Shown piece by piece: positions 35,784 to 47,013 of a stretch of 64,000 nucleotides of DNA. The position numbers and the translations under genes were made by a program. Each line of letters starts with the position of its first letter. Within the stretch, counting starts at the first letter, position 1. The stretch comes from Thiobacillus sp. (GTDB lineage: Bacteria; Pseudomonadota; Gammaproteobacteria; Burkholderiales; Thiobacillaceae), in assembly GCA_018263115.1 (NCBI GenBank), contig JADFDC010000001.1:1-64000 (forward strand). Direction: 5' to 3'. A model generated the notes under the pieces. It had not been told where the DNA came from. It ran no database searches and worked only from the letters and a program-made list of their open reading frames with translations.

Positions 35784-37298
35784 ATGCCAAAACGCGCCAT
35801 CCCTTTTGACAACACCTATGCCCGCGATCTGCCAGGCTTTTATGAGCCTTGCCAGCCTGCGACGGTGCGTGAGCCGGTGTTGTTGTTCTTCAACCGAGGG
35901 TTGTCTGATGAATTGCAACTGGGTCTTGCCGGCCAGGATGACGCTTCGCTGGCGGCGATGTTTTCCGGCAACGAATTACCAGCAGGCGCGCAGCCGATTG
36001 CACAGGCGTATGCGGGGCATCAGTTCGGGCAGTTCAACCCGCAGTTGGGGGATGGACGCGCGTTGTTGATCGGCGAGGTGATCGATCGAAATGGCAAGCG
36101 CCGGGACATTGCCCTGAAAGGCTCGGGTCGCACGCCGTTTTCCCGTCGGGGCGACGGCAAGGCGGCGGTGGGGCCGATGCTGCGCGAGGTGCTGATCGGC
36201 GAGGCGATGCATGCGCTGGGCATTCCCGCTACCCGTGCGCTGGCAGTTGTCTCGACCGGTGAGCCGGTGTTTCGCGAACGCACGCTGCCCGGCGCGATTC
36301 TGACGCGCATCGCGGCGAGTCATTTGCGTGTGGGCACCTTTCAGTACTTTGCGGCGCATGGCACGCCAGAGCAGGTGCGGCAGTTGGCTGATTACGCCAT
36401 CGCCCGCCATTACCCGGAGGTGACGGAGACAGAAGACCGCTACCTGGCATTTTTGCGTGCCGTTGCGGAACGGCAGGCGGCGCTGATCGCGCAGTGGATG
36501 CACGTGGGTTTCATCCACGGCGTGATGAATACCGACAACATGGCCATATCCGGCGAGACCATCGACTTCGGCCCCTGTGCTTTCATGGAAGCCTACGATC
36601 CGCGCGCCGTGTTCAGTTCCATCGACGAAGGCGGGCGCTACGCTTACGAGGCGCAACCGCACATCGCGCGCTGGAACCTGGCGAGATTGGCCGAGGCCTT
36701 GCTGCCGCTGATTGCAGACAATGAGGGCGAGGCAATCGAGCTGGCGACGGGGGTGCTGGATGATTTTCCGCTGCGCTTTCATGCGCACTGGCTATCCGGA
36801 CTGCGCGCCAAGCTGGGGTTGGGTGGACAGCGTGAAGAAGACAACCGTGCGGATGCGGCACTGGGTGAAAGCTGGCTGGATCTGCTGCATGCGCAACAGG
36901 TGGATTTCACCCTGGCCTGGCGGCGGCTGGCGGATGCGGCGGAGGGCAACGAGGCGCCGCTGCGCGCGCTATTTGCTGGGCAGCCGGGACTGGATGGCTG
37001 GCTGAAGCACTGGCGCGAACGCTGCGCTGTTGAAGATTTTGGCGAGAATGCCGGCAAGCCCAATGCAGATAAAGCGCGGGCCACGCGCATGCGCAAAGTG
37101 AACCCCTGGCTGATTCCGCGCAACCACCGCGTGGAAGAAGCGCTGGCCGCTGCGTCGGACAAAGGCGATCTGGCGCCGTTTGAAGCTTTGCTGAAAGCCT
37201 TGCAAAAGCCCTTTGATGAAGACCTGGCGCTGGCCCGCTACACTGAGCCGGCATCTGGCGAATTCATGGCGGAGTTCCGGACGTTTTGTGGAACGTGA
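35784..37298 (+). CDS. selO: SelO (YdiU), protein AMPylase pseudokinase
   Basis: 504 aa, typical of the family. SelO transfers AMP from ATP to Ser/Thr/Tyr of target proteins. Seen are IPFDNTYARDLPGFYEPCQP, YAGHQFGQFNPQLGDGRALL, KGSGRTPFSRRGDGKAAVGP, REVLIGEAMHALGIPATRAL, and the metal site TIDFGPCAFMEAY after GVMNTDNM. The usual bacterial C-terminal redox or selenocysteine region is not obvious; the protein ends EFMAEFRTFCGT with one cysteine three residues from the end, compatible with the Cys version. A decayed copy of its 5' end lies at 33746-34004. Confidence 0.95.
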   Translation: MPKRAIPFDNTYARDLPGFYEPCQPATVREPVLLFFNRGLSDELQLGLAGQDDASLAAMFSGNELPAGAQPIAQAYAGHQFGQFNPQLGDGRALLIGEVIDRNGKRRDIALKGSGRTPFSRRGDGKAAVGPMLREVLIGEAMHALGIPATRALAVVSTGEPVFRERTLPGAILTRIAASHLRVGTFQYFAAHGTPEQVRQLADYAIARHYPEVTETEDRYLAFLRAVAERQAALIAQWMHVGFIHGVMNTDNMAISGETIDFGPCAFMEAYDPRAVFSSIDEGGRYAYEAQPHIARWNLARLAEALLPLIADNEGEAIELATGVLDDFPLRFHAHWLSGLRAKLGLGGQREEDNRADAALGESWLDLLHAQQVDFTLAWRRLADAAEGNEAPLRALFAGQPGLDGWLKHWRERCAVEDFGENAGKPNADKARATRMRKVNPWLIPRNHRVEEALAAASDKGDLAPFEALLKALQKPFDEDLALARYTEPASGEFMAEFRTFCGT

Positions 37299-37314
37299 GG
37301 CCCGTTGCCTTTTA

Positions 37315-37440
37315 CCCCCTTGATAAAGGGGGTGGCTCGCAACGCGAGCCGGGGGATTTTGTGGTGGGTGTGTCGAGGTAGCCTAAACTCATCGCCCTTG
37401 GCATCATGACAAATCTCCCCGACCCCCCTTTATCAAGGGG
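37315..37440. repeat. 126-base palindromic repeat element with 17-base terminal inverted repeats
   Basis: CCCCTTGATAAAGGGGG (37316-37332) is repeated inverted as CCCCCTTTATCAAGGGG (37424-37440). Each terminus is itself near-palindromic. An internal hairpin, GGCTCGC-AAC-GCGAGCC, lies at 37334-37350. There is no coding sequence. Similar CCCCTTTATCAAGGGG elements are common between betaproteobacterial genes; mobilisation by a transposase in trans is possible. Confidence 0.75.
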
Positions 37441-37470
37441 CAGTGAAGCCGTTCATTGGGGTTGGAGATG

Positions 37471-37498
37471 AAAAAAGCCGGGTTGCCCCGGCTTTTTT
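37471..37498. terminator. Bidirectional rho-independent terminator
   Basis: AAAAAAGCCGGG-TTG-CCCCGGCTTTTTT gives a GC stem flanked by A- and T-runs on both strands. It ends the minus-strand small exported protein gene and any readthrough from selO. Confidence 0.88.
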
Positions 37499-37511
37499 GC
37501 TGTTGGCAGTA

Positions 37512-37688
37512 TTAAACCCACCATCTTTCTTTTCCACCCACGCGGTCCCAGCTGATGACGATGGGCTCGGGGGCGGGGGCGGCGGTTTCCGGTTGTGCGG
37601 TAGAGACTGGCTGACATTCGTCTGCCTTGACTGCCTGCGCAGACAGGAGACTGGCCAGAACCAGTGCGGCGGTGAGGAGCTGTTTCAT
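37512..37688 (-). CDS. Small exported protein of 58 residues
   Basis: Starts MKQLLTAALVLASLLSAQAV with an evident signal peptide (cut near AVKA-DE). The mature part is about 36 residues: one cysteine, a Pro/Ala stretch, then EPIVISWDRVGGKERWWV at the C-terminus. GAGGAG lies six bases before the ATG, and the terminator at 37471-37498 follows. It starts ten bases after the HTH gene stop, so the two are probably one operon. No family recognised. Confidence 0.72.
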   Translation of the reverse strand: MKQLLTAALVLASLLSAQAVKADECQPVSTAQPETAAPAPEPIVISWDRVGGKERWWV

Positions 37689-37698
37689 GGCTGTCTCC

Positions 37699-38547
37699 TC
37701 AGTGGGCCTTGCCGGTTTTGAAGACGATGCGCGCGGCCATGAACGGGGCCTCCGATTCGATGCGCCGCTGCACGACGTCTGCTCCCAGCAGGTCGGTAAG
37801 TTGCCCGGTCAGCCGGAACAGTTCCTTCTCGGGCAACTGGGCGCGGCAGGCAACTTCCAGTGCGTTCCACAGGTAAGCGGGCTGCTGGTCGCGCACATGC
37901 AGCCGTTCGCAGGCCTGCATCAGGTCGCGCGCCTGCTGGATGCGGTCGGAGCTGGACTGGGTTGATTGGGGCTGAGCCTGCATCAGCATTTCGAACTGGT
38001 AGCCGAGGATTTCGTTTTCGATGGCGGCGGCCAGGCGGCCATCACCTTCGCCAATGGCCTGCAGGGCTTCCTGCTGGTACAGGCGCGCCTTGTGCGAAGC
38101 CGGGTCGGTGATGCTGTAGGTGAGGCTGGCCCAATGTAATAGCCGGGCACGCTCGGGATCGTTGTGCGTTGCCGTGCTGACGAAGTGTTCGGCCAGCGCC
38201 TGGGCGCTCTCGTCACGGCCGGTGCACATCAGGTCGTACAGGGCGCGGATGGTAGGCGGGCAGGGATTGAGCAGGGTGACATGGGATTTGATCCAGAGGT
38301 CGCGCTCGATGTCGCGCAAGCGGTCCTGGTTGTGGCTGGCGATGGCTTTCTTCGACAGCGGGTTTTCCCAGTTCTGCACCGTGGTCACGGAAACCGCGGC
38401 CATGGCGGCCAGGGCTTCCTGCGAAATCCGGTAGCGGCGGCGCATGCCGCTGACCCAGTCGGCCTCGAATTCACGCTGGTTCGAGTAGCTGCGCGGACGC
38501 AGCGGCTGGGTGTGGTAATCCTTCCATTTGCTGTTCAGGTATGACAT
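37699..38547 (-). CDS. HTH transcriptional regulator with helical C-terminal domain
   Basis: 282 aa. After a basic N-terminal segment (YLNSKWKDYHTQPLRPRSYS) comes a Cro/C1-like helix-turn-helix at about residues 35-65: MRRRYRISQEALAAMAAVSV, then TTVQNWENP. The rest is helical, with TPR-like stretches (ARLLHWASLTYSITDPASHK, EALQAIGEGDGRLAAAIENE). This DNA-binding plus helical-repeat layout fits regulators that sense a peptide or partner, by inference only. AAGGAG precedes the ATG at 38547. It diverges from the 38771 gene across a palindrome-rich region. Confidence 0.75.
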   Translation of the reverse strand: MSYLNSKWKDYHTQPLRPRSYSNQREFEADWVSGMRRRYRISQEALAAMAAVSVTTVQNWENPLSKKAIASHNQDRLRDIERDLWIKSHVTLLNPCPPTIRALYDLMCTGRDESAQALAEHFVSTATHNDPERARLLHWASLTYSITDPASHKARLYQQEALQAIGEGDGRLAAAIENEILGYQFEMLMQAQPQSTQSSSDRIQQARDLMQACERLHVRDQQPAYLWNALEVACRAQLPEKELFRLTGQLTDLLGADVVQRRIESEAPFMAARIVFKTGKAH

Positions 38548-38613
38548 CGAGGTGCTCCTTTTTCTGTTCACCTACTCTACGGAACCCATTATGGCTTTCT
38601 GAAGTGGGTTCGT

Positions 38614-38690
38614 TACCAACCAGGTTGGGGTACCAGGTTGGCCCAGGTGGTTGGCCGCTCCGGTTTGCCGTCCAGGTTTGGACCTGGTTG
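38614..38690. promoter_or_regulatory. Cluster of CCAGGTTGG-type palindromes, probable operators
   Basis: Four related motifs occur within 75 bases: CCAAC-CAG-GTTGG (38616-38628), CCAGGTTGG (38633-38641), CCAGGTGGTTGG (38643-38654), and CCAGGT-TTGG-ACCTGG (38672-38687). They lie between the divergent HTH gene and the exported-protein gene, which suggests binding sites for the HTH protein controlling both directions. Confidence 0.6.
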
Positions 38691-38770
38691 CTAATCAAGC
38701 CCCCGCCAACTGCCTAATCTTTGCATCGTGATGACGCCGCATGGTGCGGCGCGATAACCGGGAGAACATC

Positions 38771-39043
38771 ATGAATGCAATCGCCAGACTTTCACTAGCA
38801 GCCGTTTTTGCCTGGGGGCTGAATGTTAACGCGCAGGCCGCGGACATGGACAGCGTTGTGGCCTATTCCATGGGGGAATTTGACCGGGTGGGCATGAGTC
38901 AGCCGGCGCCAAAAACCCAATCCGGCAAAGGCCAGAAGAAATCCGCTACAAGCGTAGCCCAGGCCGGACAGGATCGCCAGATAAATGCGCAAAAAGCCGA
39001 GTTTGTGCGCAGGATGTTCTGGATGGCGCTGAGCATGCGCTGA
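38771..39043 (+). CDS. Small exported protein
   Basis: 90 aa. The signal peptide is MNAIARLSLAAVFAWGLNVN followed by AQA-AD. The mature part includes MDSVVAYSMGEFDRVGM, a Gln/Lys/Ser-rich middle and a basic end, EFVRRMFWMALSMR. GGGAGAA lies just upstream of the ATG at 38771. No known family is recognised. Divergent from the HTH regulator and probably controlled by the palindromes between them. Confidence 0.65.
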   Translation: MNAIARLSLAAVFAWGLNVNAQAADMDSVVAYSMGEFDRVGMSQPAPKTQSGKGQKKSATSVAQAGQDRQINAQKAEFVRRMFWMALSMR

Positions 39044-39156
39044 CAGGGCATGGCCTGACTTGGCTGTAAAAAATGCTGAATCAGGGAAAATCACGGGAGC
39101 TTTGCAGGCTATATTGAAGTCTCAGATTCGCTACCTTTTGCGAAAGGGACTTCACG

Positions 39157-39531
39157 ATGAAATACCTGTTGGGTGTCATGCTGTTTTTGGGGATGTCCGG
39201 CTTTGCGCAGGCTTCGGAAGAGCCTCGATCCACACCTGAAGCGATGATGCGGGAAATGGTATCGCCGGAGGATTTGCGATTTTTTCTTAACGAAGCCCGT
39301 CAGGCTTCACGTGCCGCGGCAAAAGGCGAAAGCTATATTCCCTCTCCGGGCACTGCCGACCGCGCGAAGGCAATCGGCGAGCGGATCAGGGAAAAGGGCT
39401 TTGGCCTGATGGAAATGCTGCTGGATGAAATTGAACGCGAGCTTGTAAAGGCCTTTCCGGAAAAACCCGATACCGGGGTTGCTCCGGATACCAAACCTGA
39501 CGCAAGGCCAGTCGAAGGCGACCGAACGTAA
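39157..39531 (+). CDS. Exported protein of unknown function
   Basis: 124 aa. A signal peptide, MKYLLGVMLFLGMSGFAQAS, precedes a mostly helical mature region with EAMMREMVSPEDLRFFLNEA and IREKGFGLMEMLLDEIEREL. A disordered Pro/Asp/Thr-rich tail ends the protein. AAAGGGA precedes the ATG, and a strong terminator follows. No family recognised. It is on the same strand as the 38771 gene, 113 bases downstream, and may have its own promoter. Confidence 0.7.
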   Translation: MKYLLGVMLFLGMSGFAQASEEPRSTPEAMMREMVSPEDLRFFLNEARQASRAAAKGESYIPSPGTADRAKAIGERIREKGFGLMEMLLDEIERELVKAFPEKPDTGVAPDTKPDARPVEGDRT

Positions 39532-39551
39532 CAAAACCCGGTTATCATGGA

Positions 39552-39578
39552 AAACGCGCGGATATCCCGCGCGTTTTT
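39552..39578 (+). terminator. Rho-independent terminator before uppP
   Basis: AACGCGCGG-ATAT-CCCGCGCGTTTTTT forms an eight- to nine-pair GC stem followed by six Ts, 21 bases after the preceding gene's stop. Confidence 0.85.
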
Positions 39579-39618
39579 TGTATAAATGCGGGATGAATCC
39601 TGCATTTATGGATGCCCA

Positions 39619-40443
39619 ATGGATTTCATACTCATACTCAAAGCCCTGGTCATGGGCATGGTGGAAGGCCTGACCGAGTTTCTGCCCATTTCCAGCACGG
39701 GACATCTCATCCTGGTGGGTGATCTTCTCGGCTTCAATAACGAAAAAGGCAAGGTTTTTGAAATTGCCATCCAGCTTGGGGCGATCCTTGCGGTGGTGTG
39801 GGATTATCGCTTGCGATTTTCCAGTGTAGCGAAAGGTCTGGGCCGCGATCCCGAAGCCAATCGTTTTATGATCAATTTGCTTCTGGCTTTTATGCCTTTG
39901 GCCATACTTGGCCTTTTGTTCGGCCAGCAAATCAAGGAAACCCTGTTTTCGCCAGTACCGGTCGCGCTGGCATTCATCGTTGGGGGCGTCATCATTCTTT
40001 GGGCGGAGAAAATGCCGCACAGCAAGCACATCGACGAAGTCGACAAGATGACGTGGAAAGATGCGCTGGTGATGGGTTTCATTCAGGCGCTTGCCCTGAT
40101 TCCCGGTACTTCCCGCTCGGGCGCAACGATTATCGGTGGTTTGCTGTATGGACTGTCGCGCAAGGCGGCAACGGAGTTTTCATTCTTTCTTGCGGTGCCG
40201 ACACTGGGCATTGCTTCACTGTATGAACTCTATCAGCACGGGCATTTGTTCACGCGTGAAGATGTTGCCATGTTCGTTGCCGGGTTCGTAGCGTCGTTTG
40301 TCAGCGCAGCGATTGCCGTGCGTGCGCTGATCCGCTTTATTTCGCGGCACGATTTCACGGTGTTTGCCTGGTACCGGATCGTGTTTGGATTGATCGTGCT
40401 GGCGACTGCCTACACTGGTCTGGTGGACTGGAGCACGCCTTGA
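39619..40443 (+). CDS. uppP: UppP (BacA), undecaprenyl-diphosphate phosphatase
   Basis: 274 aa polytopic membrane enzyme that recycles the undecaprenyl carrier for peptidoglycan and LPS. The two family motifs are [19 protein letters not shown] near residues 15-33 and [20 protein letters not shown] in the second half. ATG 39619 gives [17 protein letters not shown]; the open frame begins 11 codons earlier without family support. Single gene between a terminator and the convergent coiled-coil protein gene. Confidence 0.96.
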
Positions 40444-40476: not shown

Positions 40477-41100
40477 CTATTCATCAAATGCCTTTGGCGA
40501 TTTGTCCTGCCTGATCTGCAGCAGGGCCGCTTGTGCACGGGATGCTTTCTCCATGATCAAGTCCTGCTCGCTTTTTTTCGTCTCTTCGAATGCCCTCGCT
40601 TCCTGCGCGGCCTCGGCCCTGGCCTGGGCTAGCACTGCGCGCGCACGCGCCATTCTTTCTTCACGGGTCATTTCCTGAGTGGAAATTGTTGCCTGGTGTG
40701 CGGCCAGCTCGTTGACCTGAAGATTTTCCAGTGCTGATTTGCGGGCCTGCTCAGCCTGTTCGGCTTTGACCCTGATTTCCTTGCGGGCTTTTTCCTGGGC
40801 GAGTTCGAGCGCCTTGCGTTCCTGGGCGCTCTTGATGGCGGCAAGTCTTGCCGCATCCTCTTCAGCCTGCTGACGTTCGCGTTCTTCTTCCTGCTTGCGT
40901 TCAGCTTCCTGCTTTTTCTGCAGGCGCAGGCGTTCTTCACGCGCCTTTTTCAGTTCGGCCCGGAACTGCTCACCAGACTGCCGGATGCGTTCCGCAGCTG
41001 CTTCCATTTCCTGGAATACATCCCCTTTGCCTTCTGCTGCCTGCACTGCAGGCGTACACAAGAAAACAGCAAGAATTGAAGTAATTAGGAATTTATTCAT
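40477..41100 (-). CDS. Exported coiled-coil protein
   Basis: 207 aa. A signal peptide (MNKFLITSILAVFLCTPAVQ, cut near QAA) precedes a long, very charged coiled coil rich in Glu, Lys, Arg, Gln and Ala, for example EERLRLQKKQEAERKQEEER. GGGAG lies five bases before ATG 41100. It starts 63 bases after chpA stops on the same strand, so it could be the last gene of the chemosensory transcript, though a role there is unproven. Low-complexity composition prevents family assignment. Confidence 0.75.
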   Translation of the reverse strand: MNKFLITSILAVFLCTPAVQAAEGKGDVFQEMEAAAERIRQSGEQFRAELKKAREERLRLQKKQEAERKQEEERERQQAEEDAARLAAIKSAQERKALELAQEKARKEIRVKAEQAEQARKSALENLQVNELAAHQATISTQEMTREERMARARAVLAQARAEAAQEARAFEETKKSEQDLIMEKASRAQAALLQIRQDKSPKAFDE

Positions 41101-41163
41101 GATTTCTCCCATGTCAATCGCTCCGGTTAACGTGCGTAATCCGGGGCAATCAGGATTCGTCAA

Positions 41164-44100
41164 TTACAGCGCCAATTCAGCTTTCAGCGCGCGATCACCC
41201 AACAGTTCGCCGATATGGCCGAGCAGTACGGCTTCCTGGAAAGGCTTGCCCAGATACGTATTGACGCCGATTTCCAGCGCGTGATTGCGGTGCTTGTCGG
41301 CCGTGCGGCTGGTAATCATGATGATTGGCACGGATTTGAGCCGGACATCGTTGCGCATTACGCGCGCCAGTTCGAAGCCGTCCATGCGCGGCATTTCGAC
41401 ATCGAGCAGCACGACATCCGGAACCAGGTCATGCATCTTCTCCAGCGCATCGACGCCGTCTTTCGCGGTGTCGACGCGATATCCTTCTCGGGCCATCAGG
41501 CGGCTGGTGATTTTGCGCACGGTCAGCGAATCATCCACGACCAGCACCATGGGCGCCTGCGGTGTTTCCTGTACCGGCTCAACCTTGATCTGGGCCGGCA
41601 TGGGCGCATCCACGGGTGTGTTCAATGCGCGGATAGCCAGCGGCACGGGGTTCAGAATCAGGATGATTTTGCCGTCACCACGAACCGTTGCGCCGGCAAT
41701 GCCGGTCAACCGGGCAACTTGCGGGCCGGTATTCTTGACCACGATTTCGCGGGCGCCTTCCACGACATCCACCAGCAATGCCGCGTGCGATGTGCCGCTC
41801 TTCATCAGCACTACCGTGTTGAAGCGCTGCACTTCGTGAACGGCATCCGCTTGCCCCAACAGGTGTGGCAGATAGAACAGGGGGTAACGATTGCCGCGCC
41901 ATTCGATGGCGCGCGCCTGCATGGCGGCAGCGAGATGATCGGGCTTGAGTTCCTGAACCTGTTCCACCGTGGTGGCGGGCAAGGCATACTCATGCCTGTT
42001 TGCATTCACGATAACTGCCTGCGTGACGGCAAGCGTGAGCGGCAAATAGATGCTGAATGTGACGCCCTTGCCGATTTCCGTATCAATTTCAATTCGTCCA
42101 CCCAGACTGCTGATTTCATTCTTGACCACGTCCATGCCGACGCCGCGTCCGGCAACTTCGGTGACCTGCTCTGCCGTGGAAAAACCGGGGATGAATATCA
42201 TCTGCGCCAGTTGGCTGTCGGAAGGCTCAACACCCGCGCTCAGCAGATTGAGCGCATGGGCTTTCTCGCGAATACGGTTCAGGTTCAGGCCGGCGCCATC
42301 ATCCTTGATGATCAGCACCATTTCGTTGCCCTCCTGGCGCGCATCGATGCGAATTTCGCCGAATTCCGGCTTGCCTGAAGCGGCACGTGTTTCAGACGAT
42401 TCCAGTCCATGTGCCACCGCGTTACGCAGCAGGTGTTCAATAGGCGCGACAACTTTTTCGAGCACGCCGCGGTCAAGTTCAAGGTCGCCGTTGCGGATGT
42501 CCAGTTGAGCACGCTTGTTCAGATCGCGCCCGGTCTGGCGCACAACCCGATAGAGACGTTCCGAAATGCTGTGCAGGGGAACCATGCGGACACGCAGCAG
42601 GTTCTGCTGCAATTCGCGATTCATGCGGGCCTGCTGAATCAACGCCGCATCGGCTTCGCCCAGTTGCACGGACAGGTTTTGCTGGACGGTGGAAATGTCG
42701 TGCACGCTTTCCGTCAGGAAGCGGGTGACTTCCTGGAAGCGGCTAAAGCGGTCAAATTCAAGCGGGTCAAAATCGCTTTTTCCGCCATGGCTGTGGAAAG
42801 TTGCCTGCATCTGTGCTTCGGCCTGGATTTCAACTTCGCGCATGTGATCCTTGAGGCGGCGCAGCGCTTCGGACAATTCCGAGACTTGCCGCTTGAGGGA
42901 GAACATTTCGCTTTCTATGCGCGAACGCGCGATGGCGACTTCACCGGCTTCGTTGACCATGCGGTCAACCCAGTCCGACCTTACGCGCAGAACCGTGCTT
43001 TCCGACTGCACAGTGGGTATGGGCGCTGTTTGAGCGGAGGCGGTTGTCGTAGCGGCAGGTTCGGATGCCAGGGTGCCGGGCTCTTCTGGTGGGAGAACCA
43101 CGCCAATTTCTGCGGCTTCGGTGTCTGTCTGGGTGACTTCGGTAGTAGCCCCGCCCAGTCTGAGCCTGTCCACGTCATTGGCCATGCGGTCAAACTGGCT
43201 TTCCAGCGCATCGAACACGCTGGCATCGGCGGTCAATCCACTTTCCAGAACCGCGACGACGCGCGATTCCATGATATGAGTCAGTTCGCCCAGACGCATG
43301 CAACCTGCCATGCGTGCCGAGCCCTTGACGGTATGCAGTACGCGGCGCAATTCCGAGGGTGCTTGAACATCTCCGGGTTGAGTCTTCCATCGGCGCAGGC
43401 TTTCCGCCGCAGCGGGAACAAGGCCTTCGGCCTCCTCCAGGAAGATCGGCAAAAGTTCCGCATCGATTTCATCCCGTACCTGCCGTTGTTCAAAGACAGG
43501 TGTATTGGCCTGGCGCTTTGCCTGGGTGATCAGATCTTCAAGGCTGGTTTCTGTTTCCGCCTGCGCGGCTTCAGATTCAGTGGCGCCAGTATTGCCAACG
43601 GATTCGGATTCAGGTTCGGTAGCGGGTGCCAGTTCGGATTCATTGATGTCATTTGCAGCTTCTGTCTCGGCGGACTGCACCAAATCAGTTTCACCCTGCA
43701 AGGGCGCGAAGGTTTCGCACGTCTCAGCGGAGTTTTCCGGATTCGCTGATACGGTTTCCTGGGGTTCCGTAACAGATTCAGTCGTTTCGACGCTTGGAGA
43801 CTCCACGAATTCGACAACGGTCTCGGCTTCAATGCCGGGCAGATACTCTTCAAGCTGCAAGCCAGCCAATGCCCTGATCAGGGATTCCGCGGGAAGCGGC
43901 GCGGCGCCGGCATGAATGTTGTCGATCATGCCAACCAAACGGGAAAGCGCATCCAGCACGGTGGCGCGGGCATTCTGTGGCAAGGGCCTGTCATCCAGTT
44001 CCTTGAGATAGATTTCGATGGCGTGGGCCAGGTCGGAGAGTGCGGTGAATCCGGTGGTGCCGGCTATGCCAGCCAGGGTGTGGACGCCTCGGCGTGCAGA

Positions 44101-47013
44101 CTCGCTGACAAGAGGAACCTCGGACGATGCCAGCCTGTCGTGTTCCTCGAGCAGGGACTGCGACCAGAGGGAAGATTCATCCTTGAATATCTGATACAGC
44201 CCAGGCGACAGACGAACCCCGGCAACCAGGATGTCCACTTCGATGGGCTCAGGTTCGGTTTCCTGCGCGGTTTCTTCAGGAATGGATGCTTCGTTTTCGG
44301 CAGGCGTTTCTTGTGGCGTCTCAGTCGTCAGCGATTCAATCCCGGAATCGACGGGCCCGGATTCAACAGGCACAGTTTCAACAAGCTCGGTTTCGACAGG
44401 CGCTTCAATATGAAGGGGTTCGCCTTGCGCAACGCGCGCCACAGCGGCAAGCAATCCCTCCGAGGCCACCCTGGCCCGGCCGCTTGCCTGCAACTGGGCG
44501 ATCCAGCCGGCAAAATGGTCGTGCGACAACATGACCACGTCAAGCAGGTCTGGGCTTGCGGACTTTTCCTCGGCAAGCCAACCGTTCATCAATTGTTCGA
44601 GTTCCCAGGCGACTTCGCCGAAATCGGTCAGCCCGACCATGCGGCCACTGCCCTTGAGCGTGTGGAAGGCGCGCCGGATGACGGTCAAGCTTACCTTGTT
44701 ATCGCCCTGGGTACGGCACGCAGCCTGAGCGCCGTTGAGGGTTTGCAATACTTCGTTGGCTTCTTCCAGGAAGATTTCGAGCAGTTCGCTGTCGACCGCT
44801 GCGGTTTCTTCCTCGACTGTCTGTTCTGATGAATCGGCATGCTCGCTGGCAGCGTGATCTGGTGAGAATGATTCAAATGCGTATTCAGGCGCGTCAACTT
44901 CTGCCACGACATGTTCGTCCGGCACAGATGAAACAGGTTCATCCACCGTAGTGTCAGGGCTGGTCTCGGCTTCGCTGAATTCCACTGCGCTGGCATCATC
45001 TTCGACAAGGCCCAATGCCTCGACGGTGGCAATTTCGACAGGCAGGAAGACAATGTCGTGGCCTGTCAGGTGTGCAATCGCGGCCGCCAGACTTTCATCC
45101 GGGTTCCCGACGTTGACCATGCGGAAGGCATTTTCAACAGCGGATTTCAGTGCTCTATCCGCTATCAGGTCAGCGTCATGGCCCAGTTCAGTCAGGGCCG
45201 CCAGGCACTTTTTTCTGGTATCGTCGCCTCCCGTGCCTTGCCAGTCCAGGTAAGAAGCGGCAACTGTCGCCTTGCGTGAGGCCAGTCCGTCTTCCACGGT
45301 GGGGATGAGATTTGCCGAGGCGGATTCGGGTTCGTCCAGGCCGAAGGAGATTCGGGCAGGCGCAAGAATTCTTGCGGCATCCTGGCGTCCGGCGCAATGC
45401 GCTTCGATGAACAGCCCGATACTGGACAGCGCATCGGCAATTCTTGTTTTTTCCTCGTTGCTTGGGCTGCCTTCAACCAGATAAGGGCTCACCAAATCCA
45501 TTCCACACCCCAGCAGCTGCGAGGCCGCATCCTGTTCAAGCATGGACAAGGCGCCCTGGATCTGTGCTGTCAGGGCCTCGATGTTGGATAGCGCGCCACG
45601 CTCATCGGGATTGCGGAAGAAGGTATCGAGGCTTTCTTCCATCTGATGAAGGCTGGAACTGATTTCGCGACCCAGCTGGGACAGCAATGCGTGCTCCGAG
45701 GCCTTGCGTGTGCCTTCATCGAGCAGGTCCTCGGCGCCGCCAACTGCTTGCCCTGACAGCGCAGCCTTGATCCGGCGGACCTGGCTTTCTGCGCGCGAGG
45801 GAAAATCATGATCGAACACGTCCTCGCTGCTGGTGGCGTTTTGCAGGAAAAGCAGGGTCGTGGCAATTTCCAGCCGGACAGCGTCACGTGTCTCGTCACT
45901 CAGTTGCGCGATGGACGATACGGCTTCTTTCAGGGTGCCGGTCAATTGAACCAGCGAGGGCACCTCGATCGTGCCTGCCTGGGCATTAAGCCGGGTTGAG
46001 CATGTCTGGAAGTCATTTAATGCCGTGGCATTCCCTTCGGCAAAGGCGCTCCAGTGATGCCGGGCTTCGGTCAATGTTTCCTTCAAGGCGGCCAGCAGGG
46101 GGCGTACCCGCGCCAGTTGTTCAGCGTCCAGCGCCGCGTGTTTGGGCAGATATTTTTCGAGGGCAAACGCGGAGCGGACTGCTTGTGCTTCATCACCGAC
46201 GGATTTGCTTTTTGCGATGAAAAACAGGGCATCGCGCATCAGCCGCTCCGCGACCTGGGGCGACCCGTCCGTCAACCTGCGCATTTGCAGGTCAATCCGT
46301 GCCAGCAGTTGCTTGACGTGGAAATCGGGTTCGACCCCCTTGTTCTGCAAGGCATCGATAAATCCGACGCAAGCCCACCAGAATGTCCTGGCAGCCTGAG
46401 AGGGAACGGCGGTTTCAATCTGGGAGAGCGATTTGCGCATGGCGGCCAGCCCGGCATCGACTTGCACGCCGCGCAGGAATGCAAGCAGGCCGCGCTGGAA
46501 TCCGGCACGAGAGGCTTTTACCAGGGCAGTGAGTTCAGATGCAGGAATTTCCGGGGAAGCGGATTCAACAGAGCGGACTTGCAGGCTGGGATAGAACAGT
46601 TCGCCTTCAAAAATATGGTCCGCGCCATTCAGTTCGCGAAGCTTGCGATAGACCGGGAACAAGGCAAGCTCGCCTTCGCCCCGGCCTTCAGCCATGCGGG
46701 ATACCCACTTTAGCAATGATTCCAGCGCTTCGATTACCGTGCCGGTTGCCTGGTCTGCCTGCACCGTGCGGCTGTCCATGGCGGTAAGGGTTTCCTCGAG
46801 CGCGGAAGCGACCGCGGCCGCTCCTTCCAGCCCCACCATGCGCAGCGCGCCGGTGGCTTGATGTGACTCATCCCGCGCCAGACGCAAGGCATTTTCCAGG
46901 CTGGCATCAGCCTGGTAGGCGCGGATGCGGTCGACCGCGCTTTTAAGTGCGGCTTCGATGTCGCCCCGAACCCAGTTCAGCGGTCCGGTATCAAATTCCA
47001 ACATGGCGCTCAT
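41164..47013 (-). CDS. chpA: ChpA-like hybrid CheA histidine kinase of the pilus chemosensory system
   Basis: 1949 aa cytoplasmic hybrid kinase. Its N-terminal ~700 residues are helical with a His-less Hpt-like stretch (ATGALRMVGLEG). Canonical Hpt domains follow with histidines near residues 783 (HTLKGSGRMVGL), 977 (HTLAGIAGTTGF) and 1227 (HTVKGSARMAGC), separated by acidic linkers. The kinase ATPase has LLRNAVAHGLE (~1528), IKDDGAGLN and GRGVGMDVVKNEISSLGG. A CheW domain (~1665-1790) and a C-terminal receiver (MVLVVDDSLTVRKITSRLM, phospho-Asp in LLDVEMPRMDGFE) end it. In Pseudomonas such a protein controls type IV pilus twitching. Last large gene of the pilGHIJ operon. Confidence 0.95.
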   Translation of the reverse strand: MSAMLEFDTGPLNWVRGDIEAALKSAVDRIRAYQADASLENALRLARDESHQATGALRMVGLEGAAAVASALEETLTAMDSRTVQADQATGTVIEALESLLKWVSRMAEGRGEGELALFPVYRKLRELNGADHIFEGELFYPSLQVRSVESASPEIPASELTALVKASRAGFQRGLLAFLRGVQVDAGLAAMRKSLSQIETAVPSQAARTFWWACVGFIDALQNKGVEPDFHVKQLLARIDLQMRRLTDGSPQVAERLMRDALFFIAKSKSVGDEAQAVRSAFALEKYLPKHAALDAEQLARVRPLLAALKETLTEARHHWSAFAEGNATALNDFQTCSTRLNAQAGTIEVPSLVQLTGTLKEAVSSIAQLSDETRDAVRLEIATTLLFLQNATSSEDVFDHDFPSRAESQVRRIKAALSGQAVGGAEDLLDEGTRKASEHALLSQLGREISSSLHQMEESLDTFFRNPDERGALSNIEALTAQIQGALSMLEQDAASQLLGCGMDLVSPYLVEGSPSNEEKTRIADALSSIGLFIEAHCAGRQDAARILAPARISFGLDEPESASANLIPTVEDGLASRKATVAASYLDWQGTGGDDTRKKCLAALTELGHDADLIADRALKSAVENAFRMVNVGNPDESLAAAIAHLTGHDIVFLPVEIATVEALGLVEDDASAVEFSEAETSPDTTVDEPVSSVPDEHVVAEVDAPEYAFESFSPDHAASEHADSSEQTVEEETAAVDSELLEIFLEEANEVLQTLNGAQAACRTQGDNKVSLTVIRRAFHTLKGSGRMVGLTDFGEVAWELEQLMNGWLAEEKSASPDLLDVVMLSHDHFAGWIAQLQASGRARVASEGLLAAVARVAQGEPLHIEAPVETELVETVPVESGPVDSGIESLTTETPQETPAENEASIPEETAQETEPEPIEVDILVAGVRLSPGLYQIFKDESSLWSQSLLEEHDRLASSEVPLVSESARRGVHTLAGIAGTTGFTALSDLAHAIEIYLKELDDRPLPQNARATVLDALSRLVGMIDNIHAGAAPLPAESLIRALAGLQLEEYLPGIEAETVVEFVESPSVETTESVTEPQETVSANPENSAETCETFAPLQGETDLVQSAETEAANDINESELAPATEPESESVGNTGATESEAAQAETETSLEDLITQAKRQANTPVFEQRQVRDEIDAELLPIFLEEAEGLVPAAAESLRRWKTQPGDVQAPSELRRVLHTVKGSARMAGCMRLGELTHIMESRVVAVLESGLTADASVFDALESQFDRMANDVDRLRLGGATTEVTQTDTEAAEIGVVLPPEEPGTLASEPAATTTASAQTAPIPTVQSESTVLRVRSDWVDRMVNEAGEVAIARSRIESEMFSLKRQVSELSEALRRLKDHMREVEIQAEAQMQATFHSHGGKSDFDPLEFDRFSRFQEVTRFLTESVHDISTVQQNLSVQLGEADAALIQQARMNRELQQNLLRVRMVPLHSISERLYRVVRQTGRDLNKRAQLDIRNGDLELDRGVLEKVVAPIEHLLRNAVAHGLESSETRAASGKPEFGEIRIDARQEGNEMVLIIKDDGAGLNLNRIREKAHALNLLSAGVEPSDSQLAQMIFIPGFSTAEQVTEVAGRGVGMDVVKNEISSLGGRIEIDTEIGKGVTFSIYLPLTLAVTQAVIVNANRHEYALPATTVEQVQELKPDHLAAAMQARAIEWRGNRYPLFYLPHLLGQADAVHEVQRFNTVVLMKSGTSHAALLVDVVEGAREIVVKNTGPQVARLTGIAGATVRGDGKIILILNPVPLAIRALNTPVDAPMPAQIKVEPVQETPQAPMVLVVDDSLTVRKITSRLMAREGYRVDTAKDGVDALEKMHDLVPDVVLLDVEMPRMDGFELARVMRNDVRLKSVPIIMITSRTADKHRNHALEIGVNTYLGKPFQEAVLLGHIGELLGDRALKAELAL

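Follow-up and report, generated by a model that had tools for sequence, protein, structure and literature searches.

Organization of the locus

The window analysed here is a stretch of 64,000 nucleotides from Thiobacillus sp. (contig JADFDC010000001.1). The four open reading frames of interest (282, 58, 90 and 124 aa) lie where a previous sequence-only reading had placed them. P1, P2 and P3 are used below as labels for the 58-aa protein, the 90-aa protein and an alternative divergent small protein found in relatives, respectively. The features of the locus are as follows.

37472-37500, no strand: inverted repeat AAAAAGCCGGG-TTGC-CCCGGCTTTTT between P1 and selO, found by eye
37512-37688, minus strand: P1 (58 aa), exported, encoded after the regulator in one operon; its signal peptide was recognized by eye
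37536-37550, minus strand: WDRVG, the motif at residues 47-51 of P1; all its positions but that of D are invariant in 37 of 37 P1 sequences
37699-38547, minus strand: regulator, 282 aa from its ATG, with an N-terminal helix-turn-helix (HTH, about residues 24-62) and a C-terminal all-helical repeat domain
38588-38593, minus strand: -10-like CATAAT for the operon of the regulator and P1, offset 35 relative to the start of the palindrome, found by eye
38616-38691, no strand: putative operator array, six 13-bp units at 38616, 38629, 38642, 38655, 38668 and 38679
38715-38720, plus strand: -10-like TAATCT for P2, offset 36 relative to the final unit of the array
38771-39043, plus strand: P2, 90-aa exported protein, divergent from the regulator, with an internal FDRVG and a conserved C-terminal RRMFWMALSMR
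38879-38893, plus strand: FDRVG motif of P2 (residues 37-41)
39157-39531, plus strand: 124-aa ORF, exported-looking orphan between P2 and uppP (bacA)

The regulator and P1 genes are separated by 10 nt containing GAGGAG. The inverted repeat at 37472-37500 is likely, as judged by eye, to be a two-way terminator serving P1 and selO; it was absent from the output of the terminator scan. Beside selO, the intergenic region 37300-37445 carries another inverted repeat, around CCCCCTTGATAAAGGGGG ... CCCCCCTTTATCAAGGGG, which resembles a REP or a small mobile element. Further along the window, a 228-aa exported-looking coiled-coil protein rich in Glu, Gln, Arg and Ala is encoded at 40477-41163 (minus strand), with no family match over cut-off, just downstream of a 1949-aa ChpA/CheA-type kinase-like protein with a receiver domain (41164-47013).

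The regulator family

The HTH_3 model of Pfam matched the window regulator weakly (E 0.005, under cut-off) and matched 38 of 38 members of the regulator family at E<=0.1. A literature search, with subscription journals mostly outside its reach, brought up no earlier account of the family. Strong homologues (58-70% identity) were found in 35 of the 149 genomes searched, the window genome included, all belonging to one family of sulfur-oxidising bacteria; a thirty-sixth genome (G144) was dropped as its match was weak (E 3e-4 over 58 residues). The eight other genomes of the same genus gave no homologue and, in a search for spread beyond the family, the regulator profile (E<=1e-6) returned the window genome only among 369 genomes of the class. 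The named regulator loci come from Thiobacillaceae and Hydrogenophilaceae genomes or MAGs and their kin, with titles such as Thiobacillus, Parasulfuritortus, Tepidiphilus, Hydrogenophilus and similar; Parasulfuritortus cantonensis (L034) is a culturable relative carrying the locus. As these named loci (L021-L057) overlap the 90 family genomes (G000-G089), counts from the two sets are not additive. Within the family, the regulator is present in 35 of 90 genomes, and this patchy presence suggests repeated gain or loss.

P1 accompanies the regulator

The sequence-only reading had proposed an examination of the gene neighbourhood of the HTH protein. This bore out the pairing: in 36 of 36 complete named loci, and in the window, the gene following the regulator on the same strand, 9-26 nt past its stop codon, encodes a P1 protein of 48-78 aa with export features (locus L057, which ends at a contig edge, was left out of this count). 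Across the 90 family genomes, P1 (E<=1.4e-9) accompanies the regulator in 34 of 35 cases and is otherwise detected in G071 only; the regulator-positive genome lacking a match (G049) is cut at a contig end. In G071 (locus L232, contig G071:C296), the regulator has been lost by a deletion running into P1, of which a remnant is left. This genome keeps P2 with its array as well as a site before ybgC, and represents a natural case of regulator loss.

All 37 P1 proteins begin with what resembles a signal peptide, continue with a segment of variable length rich in Ala, Pro and Gln and carry, in the C-terminal region, the motif [AS]W[DQH]RVG, which ends 3-11 residues before the C-terminus. The exchange between D and Q in WxRVG corresponds to one change on the regulator tree, and no independent co-variation between P1 and the regulator was observed.

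Palindromic sites and promoter geometry

Sites were defined as 13-mers scored against CCAACCnGGTTGG at its 12 fixed positions. Four palindromic motifs had been described in the divergent gap; the palindromes are real, and they form six adjacent 13-bp units rather than four. The first unit (38616) is a perfect CCAACCnGGTTGG palindrome, the six units match at 12, 9, 9, 8, 9 and 8 of 12 positions, and their successive spacings are 13, 13, 13, 13 and 11. The total for the array is 55 of 72; elsewhere in the 64-kb window, with both strands considered, no non-overlapping place exceeds 40 (mean 18.9, sd 3.8). Taken alone, exact CCAGGTTGG is unremarkable, with two occurrences in the window and at least two in 19 of 100 shuffles.

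In the regulator promoters, CCAACCnGGTTGG was found at 11 or more of 12 positions in 38 of 38 cases (37 loci and the window). Furthermore, 29 of these 38 promoters have a TANNNT hexamer at an offset of 36 bases from the start of the site, and 36 of them have one at 35-37; the CATAAT of the window falls outside this pattern. The same offset of 36 was observed before P2 (14 of 17), P3 (16 of 16) and ybgC (14 of 21, G071 being among the 21, with one further ybgC at 37). Before P2 and P3, the units are arranged in tandem, mostly 13 bp apart, with a last spacing of 11. The centre of the promoter-proximal site thus lies at about -42 relative to the expected start, over the place of the -35 box, and no TTGACA-like box at a spacing of 16-18 was found in the 36 regulator promoters examined.

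A perfect palindrome is present in all 35 regulator-positive genomes (74 sites) and in 10 of the 55 others (10 sites, G071 included); the Fisher p value of 6e-16 is too small, the genomes being related. Some perfect sites away from the regulator itself lie inside coding sequence and were left out as targets. In three related genomes (G067, G075 and G077), a perfect palindrome (CCAACCaGGTTGG) lies within or borders a gene that resembles those of the metallo-beta-lactamase fold (L117, L121, L130, L131).

Chance occurrence of the palindromes was rejected on the array score, the co-occurrence across genomes and the promoter sites. An RNA element in the divergent gap was likewise rejected, an Rfam search of 36900-39700 having returned no match. 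From their sequence and distribution, the palindromes are very probably the operators of the regulator.

P2, P3 and the 124-aa neighbour

P2 was detected (E<=5e-4) in 16 regulator-positive genomes and in G071. P3 was detected (E<=2e-12) in 18 genomes, all of them regulator-positive; a marginal P3 match (6e-4) was obtained in one regulator-negative genome (G080), and a P3-like divergent gene was recognized by eye in the regulator-positive genome G016 (locus L023). P2 and P3 were found together in none of the 90 family genomes. Since exactly one of P2 (16), P3 (18) or the P3-like gene (1) accompanies the regulator in 35 of 35 genomes, it is suggested that P2 and P3 fill one role. The motif [WF]xRVG occurs in 11 of 17 P2 proteins, the six others being devoid of xRVG. 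The hydrophobic start of P3 is devoid of the basic residues usual for a signal peptide, so that export is less certain for P3 than for P1 and P2.

The 124-aa protein gave no Pfam or NCBIfam match and no relative by tblastn in the loci searched, and no site was seen by eye in the gap preceding its ORF (39044-39156). Because it has neither a relative in the loci nor an upstream site, it was rejected as a member of the system and is considered a neighbour only. The first proposal, a locally regulated set consisting of a regulator and small exported proteins, is supported, and the 124-aa protein falls out of it. Regulator homologues deprived of the small genes and of the palindromes, which would have spoken against that proposal, were not seen (P1 in 36 of 36 loci, palindrome in 35 of 35 genomes, P2 or P3 in 35 of 35). 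Two features go beyond it, namely the geometry of the six-unit array and the sites located before tol-pal in many relatives.

Sites before tol-pal and other envelope genes

A site matching at 11 or more of 12 positions precedes ybgC in 20 of 32 regulator-positive genomes, versus 0 of the 16 regulator-negative genomes tested out of 55, where the best score was 8; three of the 35 regulator-positive genomes had no ybgC match, and G071, which also carries such a site, was left out of the comparison. At locus L160, ybgC is followed by TolQ and TolR genes, recognized by sequence. The site is missing in 12 of the 32 genomes, including the window genome. In the genomes whose P2 carries xRVG (window included), a strong ybgC site was found in 0 of 10 tested; thus, these genomes and those with a ybgC site, which are phylogenetically clustered, may differ in output. 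In PMC7391070, the regulation of tol-pal is presented as little known and as an acknowledged gap.

In the window genome, 17 loci around near-sites (11 of 12 positions) were inspected, some of them showing one place twice. In two of the 17, a -10-like hexamer at offset 35-37 is combined with a gene start that has a Shine-Dalgarno sequence: one lies before the gene of an OmpA-family lipoprotein (L154:633-1470) and the other before that of an exported chalcone-isomerase-like protein (L155:1501-2146). Both genes are plausible further targets.

Fold of the regulator and search for a bound peptide

The structure model of the regulator is all helical (pLDDT 88.5), with helices predicted over residues 24-60. 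When this model was compared with the PDB by Foldseek, PlcR ranked first with a weak match (E 0.007, probability 0.99, TM 0.24) and ComR second; the best 50 matches also included NprR, Rgg2 (twice, at ranks 15 and 18), AimR and Rap. The TPR domains returned by VIA-align had Z values of at most about 10, which helical repeats can reach by common arrangement alone; PlcR was not among its best 50 matches, and Rap (8rsv_B) had a Z of 8.6. The helical repeats of the regulator match many folds. No Pfam TPR match was listed for the family, and profile A1, searched against all PDB chain sequences, gave five matches at E<=10, none of them an RRNPP protein.

An AlphaFold model of a natural regulator-P1 read-through (L025) showed P1 at pLDDT 29-35 and no docking; this is a weak test, the model being a single chain and only 7 of the 37 rows being fused. 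Of the 90 genomes, 88 encode a protein of the peptide-importer family SBP_bac_5, irrespective of whether they have the regulator, so that this family does not discriminate between them. The likeness to PlcR-PapR is therefore one of gene layout and probably of fold, as modelled, and membership is not claimed.

A proposed regulatory circuit and its alternatives

We propose that the locus belongs to a cell-envelope regulon governed by an HTH/helical-repeat activator with the exported peptide P1 as its partner, and we assign to this explanation as a whole a probability of about 0.45. In this scheme, the regulator would in all likelihood bind CCAACCnGGTTGG, at single sites before ybgC-tol-pal and in its own promoter when the latter is not shared with the divergent gene, and at tandem 13-bp arrays before P2 or P3. 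It would probably act as an activator, also of its own operon (positive autoregulation); activation is favoured by the position of the site, whose centre lies some 42 bases ahead of the expected start and over the -35 place, and by the lack of a good -35 box. P1 would be translated with the regulator, sent to the periplasm by its Sec signal peptide and trimmed to a short C-terminal peptide containing [AS]W[DQ]RVG. By analogy with PlcR-PapR, this peptide could quite conceivably be the ligand of the helical-repeat domain, at odds a little short of even; its return to the cytoplasm through an oligopeptide importer, drawn from the same analogy, is a more doubtful step. Peptide sensing by the helical domain, already suggested in the sequence-only reading, agrees with the fold and with the order of the genes, but the single docking test was negative. 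The cell would in this way read export or peptide accumulation and drive P1, either P2 or P3, and tol-pal in many species.

P1 could alternatively be an effector and not a signal. The repeat domain of an ordinary autoregulated envelope regulator would then respond to another input, and WxRVG, in P1 as in P2, would bind a periplasmic partner. The presence of the motif in P2 as well, a protein that is not necessarily a signal, the undocked read-through model and a regulon consisting of envelope genes are in agreement with this scheme, which we nevertheless hold to be rather unlikely: P1 is always the next gene and, except for the G071 remnant, never occurs without the regulator, as better befits a dedicated partner. 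The same envelope regulon, together with a Sec-type signal peptide placed before the motif, would also suit a sensor of export or envelope stress, in which P1 that fails to be exported remains cytoplasmic and binds the repeat domain through its WxRVG tail, envelope genes are raised and re-import is unneeded. The motif would indeed be reachable in that compartment; the negative docking of the unprocessed read-through, however, argues against such a monitor, and we judge it unlikely.

The circuit could also work with the regulator as a repressor, the sites excluding the polymerase until the ligand releases the protein. Their overlap with the -35 position would allow it, but a recognisable -35 at 16-18 spacing is missing and one fixed distance between site and -10 in four promoter classes suggests contact with the polymerase, which makes repression improbable. 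As for a toxin-antitoxin or phage module, with an HTH antitoxin and small membrane-active proteins, it would account for the weak, HTH-only matches of the regulator to antitoxin and phage models. These matches are far below the curated cut-offs (the best score against antitoxin families being 15.2 bits versus 71.65), and sites stand before tol-pal; this origin is very improbable. A phage or defence module was rejected in its own right, as the PHROG matches of the regulator are at the HTH level only, P1 gave one marginal match (E 0.0098) and PADLOC returned none.

If the circuit with P1 as the sensed peptide of an activator is true, many of these species would have a dedicated peptide-driven control of Tol-Pal. 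With its identified regulator, precisely defined operator, constant promoter geometry and limited regulon, the system can be tested in culturable relatives.

Comparison with known systems

One match is limited to the DNA-binding part: the VC1465-family Xer recombination activation factor (NF040522) matches over a 31-residue HTH only, with 22.6 bits versus a cut-off of 70. The Rcs system of Escherichia coli also regulates the tol-pal operon, whereas the input proposed here would come from a dedicated regulator of the one-component type, acting on a fixed operator. Rgg-SHP and ComR-ComS have the same two-domain plan, with no sequence relation detected; the other differences given below for PlcR-PapR apply to them too.

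Compared with the features of RRNPP(A) receptors, the regulator family has the N-terminal HTH common to all but Rap and a small exported propeptide adjoining the receptor, the signal peptides being read by eye. Its hosts are Thiobacillaceae/Hydrogenophilaceae and their kin, unlike the Bacillota and their mobile elements that harbour these receptors. Two surveys were confined to Firmicutes (PMC9765709) or covered Firmicutes and viruses (PMC10075063). Should P1 be the ligand, signalling by a receptor and its propeptide, as in PlcR-PapR, would reach Gram-negative bacteria, a group outside the range of these two surveys.

On a bolder reading, which we consider less likely than not, the system would be a Gram-negative counterpart of PlcR-PapR, in which an exported [AS]W[DQ]RVG peptide sensed in the cytoplasm would set the P2/P3 output and, in many species, that of tol-pal. 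PlcR, an RRNPP-family regulator of the Bacillus cereus group, is, like the regulator proposed here, an activator with a palindromic box and a regulon of exported proteins. Both systems combine a regulator of about 280 aa, made of an HTH and helical repeats (as predicted in the present case), with an exported propeptide encoded next to it. In contrast to PlcR-PapR, the present family is betaproteobacterial and has no detectable sequence relation to solved RRNPP proteins, the P1 motif is nearly invariant and stops 3-11 residues short of the C-terminus, and the regulon takes in tol-pal in many species.
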